Below the pieces are notes generated by a model, which was not told the DNA's origin, searched no databases, and was given only the letters and a program-made list of their open reading frames with translations. From Phytoactinopolyspora alkaliphila (GTDB taxonomy: Bacteria > Actinomycetota > Actinomycetes > Jiangellales > Jiangellaceae), in the NCBI RefSeq assembly GCF_010550695.1, contig NZ_JAAGOB010000001.1, positions 310,001 through 374,000 on the forward strand: a stretch of 64,000 bases of DNA, written 5' to 3'. Shown one piece after another: positions 45,395 through 49,479 of this stretch. Position 1 is the first letter of the stretch; each line of letters opens with the position of its first letter. A program made the translations under genes and the position numbers.

Positions 45395-45404
45395 GCCCCG
45401 CCCT

Positions 45405-45490
45405 AATGATCATGTAAACCATGTCTTCTCGTGCGACACCGTGCCTGCAGGCCTGGTGAAGCACGAGAAAACATGGTTTACATGATCATT
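45405..45490. repeat. 86-bp palindrome, copy B
   Basis: Two 43-base halves (45405-45447, 45448-45490) are reverse complements with five mismatched pairs. The right half differs from copy A at 36187-36229 at only two of 43 positions, and both changes are matched in the left half, so pairing is kept. It lies between convergent hisG and the PLP-fold gene, again ten bases after the stop codon. Same likely role as copy A. Confidence 0.93.
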
Positions 45491-45520
45491 TGGGGCGAGC
45501 TGCGATGGGGTGAACGCGGG

Positions 45521-46840
45521 TCAGAGGAAGGCCTTGCCGTCGCCCCGGTATGTGGCCGCGGTGTCGACGAGCCGCTCGCCACGCACCAAGTAGTACCGGT
45601 CGAAGCGTTCGGCAAGCTCACCCGCCTTGGCGTGCCGGAACCAGACCAGGTCACCCAAGGCCAGGCTGTCCGCCGTGGCACCGATCAATGGCGTCTGCGT
45701 CTGGCCCACGCCCTCGCCGCGGTCCAGCCGCAGCCCTTCAGGCAGCCACGGCGTAGGCAGCCGGTCGCCGTGCGCGGGGCCGCTGGCGACATAGCCGCCA
45801 CCCGCGACGGTCACCACCCGGGGCCCGGGACGGCGGACCACCGGCAGGGCGAAGAACGCCGCTGGCCGTGGAGTGAAGTCGGCGGCGGTGTCCGTCAGTA
45901 CCGGGCCTAGCAGACCGGATCCGGCGGCGAGCTCGGTGACCGGCGAGTCGGCGGCGGTCCGGCTGATCGACCCGGTGCCGCCACCACTGACGAACTCCAG
46001 CTCGGCGACATCACGCACCGCTTCGACCACCGCGGTGCGGCGACGGGCGACGTCACGTGCCGAACGCTCGCGCAGCCGCCGGTGTACGGCGGTCCGCAGG
46101 CGGCCCCGGCGCGGCTGGCTGTGGGCGTCGGCCAGCTGCGCCTCGTAGGCCTGCAGCCCGACGAGCCGGAATCCCGGCCGCGAGACGACGACCCGGGCGA
46201 GCCTGGCCACGTCGGCGGGCTGGCGCAGCGACGAGCGACGCGGCCCGAACCGGAGCCGGCCGCCCAAGCCCTGCCACGAGCAATCGAGGTCGAGACAGAC
46301 CCGTAGCTCGGCGCGGGCCTCGGGTGCCGCCACGGCGTCGACAAGATCGAGCTGCGCGATGTCGTCGACCATCAGCGTGATGCGCCCGGCGAGGTGCTCG
46401 TCCCCGACGAGGCGGGCCAGCGCCCGGCGATCGGCGCTCGGATACGCCACGACCGCATCGTCGCAGATGCCCGTGCCCGCCAGCCAGATGGCCTCGGCGA
46501 GCGTGAACGTCAGCACGCCCTCGTAGCCGTCCCGGCCGAGCAGATCACGGATGAGGGAGCGGTTGCGAAGGGCAGCGGTGACGACCCGGATCGGCTTGCC
46601 GTGGGCCCGCTGGACCAGGTCGGTGGCGTTGGCGTCCCAGGCGTCCATATCGACGGCGGCGAGCGGGACGTCGGCCCCCGCCGTCGCGGTGTTCAGCCGG
46701 TGTCTCAGGTCGGCTCGGGAGCTGACGATGGGCGGGCCGGCAGCATCCGCCCGGGGTGCGATGTCACGTACCGGAAGGATCTCGGTGCCGGGCCGGGGCG
46801 GGGGCGGCGGCGCCTGGTCGTCTGCGAGCTTGATCTCCAC
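45521..46840 (-). CDS. D-threonine-aldolase / alanine-racemase-fold protein lacking the expected PLP lysine
   Basis: A 439-residue protein of the 'amino acid deaminase/aldolase' (fold-type III PLP) family. Family-like segments are DMDAWDANATDLVQRA, GLQAYEAQLAD, FVSGGGTGSISRTAAD and LVWFRHAKAGELAERFD. In relatives the N-terminal strand reads roughly PIRVASKSVR, with the Schiff-base lysine. Here it is PIRVVTAALR (residues 83-92), with Ala at the lysine place; the codons are GCT GCC. A cysteine often found after HAKAGEL is also Ala. It may be catalytically dead or have a new role. Convergent with hisG. Confidence 0.78.
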   Translation of the reverse strand: MEIKLADDQAPPPPPRPGTEILPVRDIAPRADAAGPPIVSSRADLRHRLNTATAGADVPLAAVDMDAWDANATDLVQRAHGKPIRVVTAALRNRSLIRDLLGRDGYEGVLTFTLAEAIWLAGTGICDDAVVAYPSADRRALARLVGDEHLAGRITLMVDDIAQLDLVDAVAAPEARAELRVCLDLDCSWQGLGGRLRFGPRRSSLRQPADVARLARVVVSRPGFRLVGLQAYEAQLADAHSQPRRGRLRTAVHRRLRERSARDVARRRTAVVEAVRDVAELEFVSGGGTGSISRTAADSPVTELAAGSGLLGPVLTDTAADFTPRPAAFFALPVVRRPGPRVVTVAGGGYVASGPAHGDRLPTPWLPEGLRLDRGEGVGQTQTPLIGATADSLALGDLVWFRHAKAGELAERFDRYYLVRGERLVDTAATYRGDGKAFL

Positions 46841-48726: not shown

Positions 48727-49479
48727 TTACTGGTCGAGTGAGTTGCACGCGGCCACGAGGGCGTGCCGGGCGGCTCGTTCCAGGGGCGCGAGCACGTCGC
48801 GGCGAGACTGGGCGGCGGCCGCGCTGACCGCTCCGCCGTCGTCGTCGAGAGCGAAGCCGGCAACGGCGAGCAACCGGATGCTGCGCGCGGCCACCATCTG
48901 GGCCCGGGGCGGATATGTGCGGGGCAACGGTTCGGCGATCTGCGACTTGCGGACGTCGTTGAGCAGCGTGGCCACCTCCGGGCGCCACGAGGCCACATCG
49001 AGCGCCGCGAGCGACGATCCCGCGTCGATCAGCGTGCTGGCCAGCTGTTGCTCGGCTTCCGCGAGGGTGGCACCGAGCGGAGGAATCTCGGCCTCGTAGC
49101 ACCGCCAGGTCACCAGGTGGCCTTCGTCGCCCGGCGGACCGAACGCCTGGATCTCGGGCACGAGCGCCAGGCCGGCGCCGTGGGCGAGCACAGCCTCGCC
49201 GGCGTCGATCGCCGCTTCGGTGAGCTGTCTGGGACCGCCCAGACCGGCTGGATCGCCGGGCACCGGCAGCACTACCCGGAAGGAACCGGCGCCGCGGTCC
49301 CGCAGCTTGGACAACGCGGTGACCAGGCTGCTCGTGGTGGCGTCTCCGGGCAGCCCGGCGACGTCGTGCGGCTCGTCGTCGCCGCACACCCGAGTGAGGA
49401 CGTCGTCCATGGAGGACTCGGAGCGCAGCCACGCGTTCGCCCACGCGGCAAGACGGGCAGAACGCGGCATGGTGACCAT
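48727..49479 (-). CDS. Conserved hypothetical protein upstream of serB
   Basis: A 250-residue protein of no recognised domain. It is rich in Ala, Leu and Asp, has no signal peptide or transmembrane segment, and is coded with the same high-GC third-position pattern as its neighbours, so it is a real gene. It lies 13 bases before serB on the same strand and so is likely cotranscribed. Function unknown. Confidence 0.7.
   Translation of the reverse strand: MVTMPRSARLAAWANAWLRSESSMDDVLTRVCGDDEPHDVAGLPGDATTSSLVTALSKLRDRGAGSFRVVLPVPGDPAGLGGPRQLTEAAIDAGEAVLAHGAGLALVPEIQAFGPPGDEGHLVTWRCYEAEIPPLGATLAEAEQQLASTLIDAGSSLAALDVASWRPEVATLLNDVRKSQIAEPLPRTYPPRAQMVAARSIRLLAVAGFALDDDGGAVSAAAAQSRRDVLAPLERAARHALVAACNSLDQ

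Follow-up and report, generated by a model that had tools for sequence, protein, structure and literature searches.

The target protein, a single-copy fold-type III PLP-family protein of Phytoactinopolyspora alkaliphila, lacks the Schiff-base lysine of its family and has an alanine, Ala89, in its place. Its gene lies in a stretch of 64,000 nucleotides (contig NZ_JAAGOB010000001.1, positions 310,001 to 374,000), which is referred to here as the window. Ala89 is shared by six species of one clade. What is new here is that this clade retains 35 of the 42 columns that are invariant in Lys-bearing relatives, with losses centred on the PLP pocket, and that two neighbour genes are missing from it. 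We hold, with moderate confidence, that the target is a clade-specific pseudoenzyme that was kept after its pathway was lost.

The target was the only match to its own sequence in the 5.5-Mb genome, and the genome-wide search found no Lys-bearing copy of its family there. A Pfam search with the protein returned nothing at E 0.1. Its score against PF01168 (Ala_racemase_N) was below the gathering cut-off of 24.1, which a Streptomyces relative passed with 48.9. A Lys-bearing orthologue of the Jiangella group also fell short (23.8), and the missing lysine is therefore not the reason for the target's failure. The match to NCBIfam NF045642 (3-hydroxy-D-aspartate aldolase BhcC) was weak, at 47.1 bits against an equivalog cut-off of 690; the Lys-bearing orthologue L088 scored 38.3 bits. 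By phmmer, the PDB matches were Alcaligenes D-threonine aldolase (AxDTA; 4v15) and BhcC (6qkb), with 20-23% identity to the target. An AlphaFold2 model of the target (mean pLDDT 85.9) was compared with the PDB, and the best matches were again BhcC and D-threonine aldolases, at Z 35-36 over ~350 residues with an rmsd of 2.4-2.7 Å. These matches assign the model to the fold of the D-threonine aldolase / D-serine dehydratase group (barrel plus beta-domain, fold-type III). The target shares with AxDTA and BhcC this whole predicted fold and the equivalents of Arg157, Thr233, Gly251 and Ser252. In contrast to both, it has neither the Schiff-base lysine nor an equivalent of the base His193, and its putative metal-site segment, HAKAGE, differs. 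We call the Lys-bearing actinobacterial orthologues the HAKAGE family; their RefSeq name is presumably 'amino acid deaminase/aldolase'. By its conserved columns (35 of 42 kept) and its locus the target belongs to this family, but it has lost the invariant K89.

Relatives were taken from the best 80 of 573 named genomes and from searches of further genomes. Of the 158 aligned loci, L002 and L003 were excluded because they duplicate L082 and L085. All 150 family rows from outside the clade, six of which contain an in-frame stop or an N read as X, have Lys at column 89, and all six clade species have Ala. A profile of 40 sequences aligned with 4v15 paired column 89 with Lys59 of AxDTA, which is described as the PLP-binding Schiff-base residue in PMC4401734. 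The structural register agreed. When the model was cut to begin at residue 81 and superposed, residue 81 paired with residue 51 of 4v15, which places 89 on 59 on the assumption of eight gap-free residues; the profile alignment with 4v15 is gap-free there. In the same cut model, residue 81 corresponded to residue 31 of alanine racemase (1sft/1bd0), 37 of chicken D-serine dehydratase (3anu) and 35 of the Delftia dehydratase (3wqc). These pairings put residue 89 at positions 39, 45 and 43, respectively, which we take to be the Schiff-base lysines of these enzymes. The Schiff-base lysine is thus absent from the target, as the first-pass annotation had claimed from the sequence of the window (Table 1).

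The codons at this site had been described as clear (GCT GCC), leaving no room for a frameshift, and they are as stated: residue 90 (GCC, 46573-46571 on the minus strand) is also Ala. A sequencing error or frameshift behind Ala89 was ruled out by the agreement of six species, among which the Ala89 codon varies between GCT, GCC and GCG. Lys82, which the annotation had named as the residue that might occupy the active site instead, lies outside column 89 and is not conserved, being Thr and Arg in two clade members. Lys436 was likewise rejected as a catalytic candidate; it is present in six of six clade species but in only 35 of 150 relatives, and adjoins the C-terminus. Judged by titles and the opening lines of abstracts, searches of open-licence literature yielded no natural Lys-less homologue of this group.

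Table 1. Features of the target gene, with window coordinates. AxDTA equivalents follow the profile alignment with 4v15, and their pocket roles PMC4401734.
Feature	Position	Strand	Observation
Lys-less fold-type III PLP-family protein, CDS	45521..46840	(-)	439 aa, GTG start
V-T-A-A (residues 87-90)	46571..46582	(-)	Relatives mostly A-S-K-S; 87, 89 and 90 are V, A and A in 6/6 clade species
Ala89 codon GCT, Schiff-base lysine column (AxDTA Lys59)	46574..46576	(-)	Placed by alignment, profile and structural register
Arg202, AxDTA Arg157 equivalent (PLP O3' / substrate carboxylate)	46235..46237	(-)	Kept in 6/6 clade species
Tyr232, AxDTA Tyr187 equivalent (PLP stacking)	46145..46147	(-)	Clade Tyr in 4, Phe in 2; others Tyr in 150/150
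Asp238, AxDTA His193 equivalent (base)	46127..46129	(-)	Gly in 150/150 relatives; clade D, A, E, D, N, V
PLP-phosphate loop SGGGTGS (285-291)	45968..45988	(-)	Intact here except N285S; Gly290 lost in 2/6 clade species
Gly307-Ser308, AxDTA Gly251 and Ser252 equivalents (PLP phosphate)	45917..45922	(-)	Kept in 6/6 clade species
Thr316, AxDTA Tyr260 equivalent (PLP phosphate)	45893..45895	(-)	Phe in 150/150 relatives; clade Thr/Leu
Gln380-Thr381	45698..45703	(-)	Relatives Glu (150/150) and Val/Ala; Q-T in 6/6 clade species
Lys405 of HAKAGE	45626..45628	(-)	Only other family-invariant lysine (150/150 relatives); kept in 6/6 clade species

The seven invariant columns lost in the clade are K89, Y232, G238, N285, G290, F316 and E380. 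Four of them (K89, Y232, G238 and F316) fall on the seven invariant PLP-pocket columns (Fisher p 0.009), the pocket set being ten active-site positions, with the unmappable metal ligands omitted, taken from the excerpt of PMC4401734 after the loss of K89 was known; of the ten, 112, 289 and 305 were dropped as not family-invariant. Each of seven control groups of at least four rows was compared with the 42-48 columns that are invariant in all other rows; the groups had lost 0, 1, 1, 2, 2, 2 and 6 of these, and no pocket column was among the losses. Six of 48 were lost in a group of 22 rows from two named families and one unnamed family. The number of losses in the clade is therefore not exceptional in itself, and it is their location that is unusual. 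Five switched columns are identical in all six clade species (V87, A89, A90, Q380 and T381). The annotation had described the target as of full length with its glycine-rich PLP-phosphate segment kept; this is true of the target itself, but two clade members have changed the invariant Gly290.

A class-level search found a match at E 0.001 in 201 of 393 genomes. Within the Jiangellaceae the gene is present in 20 of 22 genomes, six with Ala89 and 14 with Lys89. The six are those of the window's genus (G000-G004) and one sister genus (G005), and their species include Phytoactinopolyspora halotolerans (G002) and P. halophila (G005); the other 14 gene-bearing Jiangellaceae have no Ala89. A search for orthologues with the same change, which the annotation had proposed, was thus successful within one clade. 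In a tree of 48 of the 158 rows, built without columns 86-91, the clade was monophyletic with an SH-aLRT support of 100. As in the window, hisG and sixA flank the target in each of the 19 Jiangellaceae loci fetched, and the 16 loci that extend far enough have serB beyond sixA. These gene names were read from the sequence, and sixA has a Pfam His_Phos_1 match. The target is 64-66% identical to the other Jiangellaceae orthologues, with which it shares the locus. The same flanks and a monophyletic clade point to one locus with vertical descent and, most simply, a single loss of the lysine.

All 14 Lys-bearing Jiangellaceae have a P-loop kinase-like gene after the target, in the same orientation, with 48-213 nt between the matched ends (1237 in G011). 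It also follows the target in 11 of 12 f26 loci (L110 and L203-L212), at a distance of 29-152 nt and, once, 482; in the twelfth, L222, an FAD oxidase stands in its stead. The copy at L122 matches NCBIfam NF005115 ('hypothetical protein'). The kinase-like gene and the Lys-bearing target form a conserved pair. In the clade, searches with the kinase-like gene gave no match at E 0.001 in six of six genomes.

An FAD-linked oxidoreductase (NCBIfam TIGR01679, 416 bits; Pfam ALO) flanks the target in other families, at 31 of the 129 loci examined for neighbours, many of which carry short flanks only. The kinase-like gene occurs at 25 of the 129, comprising the 14 of the sister group and the 11 of f26. 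Neither gene is universal, and a family-wide operon partner was therefore rejected. FAD-linked lactone-oxidase-like genes, in line or on the opposite strand, were noted near the Lys-bearing target at L213-L215, at L217-L222 and in Micromonosporaceae (e.g. L052), hinting at a pathway in common with the target. All 14 Lys-bearing Jiangellaceae have a match to the FAD oxidase elsewhere in the genome (44-49% identity, E 1.2e-94 or better), near full length in 13 and cut at a contig end in one. In a tree of the FAD oxidases, four of these copies grouped with the target-adjacent genes, and the best matches of four clade genomes fell into a different paralogue group with a support of 100. The best matches of the two remaining clade genomes, G003 and G004, were weaker (E 6e-14 and 2e-13). 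The apparent absence of the FAD-oxidase orthologue from the clade is thus supported but with gaps, four of the six clade genomes having been placed in the tree. As far as these searches show, two genes that are positionally tied to the Lys-bearing enzyme are missing where the lysine is missing, in one clade.

We read the target from these results as a probable pseudoenzyme. Its ancestor would have been an actinobacterial PLP enzyme with the D-threonine-aldolase/D-serine-dehydratase fold. K89A, together with A87V, S90A, E380Q and V381T, would have arisen once, on the stem of Phytoactinopolyspora and its sister genus, and the PLP-dependent pathway would have been given up on that stem together with the kinase-like and oxidase genes. 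Purifying selection would have held the scaffold, several PLP-pocket positions would have been freed, and the aldolase-like protein would have been retained for a different role in which the internal aldimine is not needed. We infer that the target no longer forms an internal aldimine or runs the ancestral reaction. Least certainly, it may still serve as a dimeric binding or regulatory protein, whether for a partner protein or for a small ligand whose phosphate or carboxylate is held by Arg202, Gly307 and Ser308; AxDTA is a dimer, and dimers of the fold family share active sites (excerpt of PMC4401734). The data allow the earlier suggestion of 'a sensor or a non-PLP enzyme' as one of several options, but they favour a retained, non-catalytic pseudoenzyme.

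Several observations count against the pseudoenzyme interpretation. The pocket still has Arg202, Gly307, Ser308 and an aromatic side chain at 232, four of the six species also retain Gly290 of the phosphate loop, and PLP may therefore still bind. Lys405, which is the chief reservation, and most of HAKAGE are intact, and a pure structural relic need not keep them. The five uniformly switched columns can also be read as new chemistry. Moreover, all the evidence from the clade amounts to one evolutionary event, and the two gene losses stand without a base rate.

An unlikely alternative is that PLP is still held in the target, either by an aldimine with Lys405 or non-covalently, and that catalysis is altered but ongoing. 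Only columns 89 and 405 are lysine in at least 95% of the family, and the second of these survives throughout the clade. By sequence, HAKAGE lies near the His347/Asp349 metal-ligand segment of D-threonine aldolase, and the excerpt of PMC4401734 places the metal of AxDTA ~5 Å from the PLP aldehyde and reports ~60% of the PLP in AxDTA crystals as non-covalent. Lys-less PMP enzymes exist in another fold, namely ColD and E1, in which His is used (excerpt of PMC8987622). However, PLP-pocket columns are among those on which constraint was lost. Gly290 of the phosphate loop has changed in two species, and none of the six retains Phe316. The register of Lys405 against the metal ligands is also ambiguous by two residues: a global profile alignment with PF14031 proteins leaves this ambiguity between the HAKAGE segment and the His-x-Asp/Cys metal site, and the cut model, whose C-terminal part is poorly predicted and mostly unaligned, does not align there. 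The annotation had further pointed to an Ala in place of the usual Cys in HAKAGEL. This is literally true but uninformative: at that column (410), the 150 Lys-bearing relatives have Cys in 106, Ala in 23 and Ser in 13, so that 36 of them have Ala or Ser.

Slightly less probable again is a role as a PLP-aldimine binding protein, in which the target would trap a stable external aldimine of PLP and an amino acid and would act as a sensor, carrier or buffer. The phosphate and carboxylate contacts Arg202, Gly307 and Ser308, kept in all six species, favour this role. PLPBP (YggS/PipY) differs from the target in being a single domain, and it retains its lysine, which speaks against this role for the target. 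The changes at Phe316 and Gly290 may weaken the phosphate cup, and the flanking hisG and His_Phos_1 phosphatase genes give no hint of PLP handling. PLPBP provides a precedent as a PLP binder of the same fold type with no known enzymatic activity (excerpt of PMC9605639).

A functionless relic in slow decay would account for the missing partner genes and for a protein that evolves faster than its neighbours. In codon models, however, the omega of the target was 0.035 in the clade and 0.033 in the sister group, and hisG likewise gave 0.035 and 0.033; these values are approximate because synonymous sites are near saturation. Clade differences were concentrated at third codon positions (0.475 on average) compared with first (0.183) and second (0.135) positions. 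All six clade ORFs are intact with pairwise identities of at least 68%. In a simulation, a given pair stayed free of stops with a probability of 0.05, which is weak alone. In addition, the clade retains most of the invariant columns, and Ala89 was kept through synonymous drift. An omega like that of hisG, the third-position excess and the drift at Ala89 are not pseudogene-like, and decay is improbable, being already disfavoured by these selection estimates. The ratio of clade to sister protein tree length was 1.9 for the target, compared with 0.8-1.28 among seven neighbouring genes; for four of these, the sister group was represented by 11 rows instead of 14. The target also had the longest stem (0.38, compared with 0.04-0.22 for the same neighbours); in a rooted tree the stems were 0.21 for the clade and 0.14 for the sister group, and part of the long stem therefore lies on the sister side. 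By these estimates the reading frame is under purifying selection, yet the protein evolves faster than its neighbours.

A regulatory subunit of an active paralogue, in the manner of AdoMetDC prozyme or PDX1.2 (PMC5201418 and PMC6829848), is very improbable. It would be allowed by the shared active sites of dimers in this fold family and by the one D-serine-dehydratase-like protein of PF14031 in the genome, which has an HGK motif. However, the genome has no Lys-bearing member of the target's own family, and the PF14031 protein, at 17% identity when the profiles are aligned globally, is of another family. All 14 Lys-bearing sister genomes have PF14031 proteins as well.

The pseudoenzyme interpretation thus describes a protein in which a catalytic residue is lost and sequence constraint is retained. 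It has parallels in other systems. Antizyme inhibitor, a homologue of the PLP enzyme ornithine decarboxylase, has no decarboxylase activity of its own and works through binding (excerpt of PMC3084279); unlike the target, which has no same-family paralogue, it is eukaryotic and coexists with an active paralogue. The 3-dehydratases ColD and E1 show that the catalytic lysine can be naturally replaced in a PLP-type fold (PMC8987622, as above), but theirs is the aminotransferase fold with His as the replacement base, whereas the target has Ala and no acid-base group at this position. A further comparison is with the Lys-bearing orthologues, which differ in the invariant K89 and, in several lineages, in a kinase-like or FAD-oxidase neighbour that is lacking in the clade. 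The target represents a clean natural loss of a PLP-type cofactor lysine, at the same locus in six species and without a second family copy, and the Lys-bearing orthologues in sister genera allow direct comparison. It bears on what a former enzyme does after its pathway is lost and on whether fold type III works without the lysine. The pocket losses and the missing neighbours also hint at the pathway of the Lys-bearing actinobacterial family.

Further observations concern the surroundings of the target. A conserved 250-aa ORF without a Pfam match at E 0.01 (48727-49479) adjoins serB; of the 19 family loci fetched, 16 contain it and three end before reaching it. A MOSC-domain gene separates hisG from the target in all of these 19 loci but is missing from this position in the window, where the gap between the two genes is 126 bases (45395-45520). 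This gap contains a near-perfect palindrome of ~84 bases (45406-45489), which as single-stranded DNA folds with a z of -11.9. Its 18-base arm, with at most one mismatch, occurs 131 times in the genome (67 forward, 64 reverse; control 0) and 0 times in 21 family relatives, and several copies of the palindrome lie near contig starts. The palindrome has the look of a species-specific dispersed palindromic element that was amplified recently.
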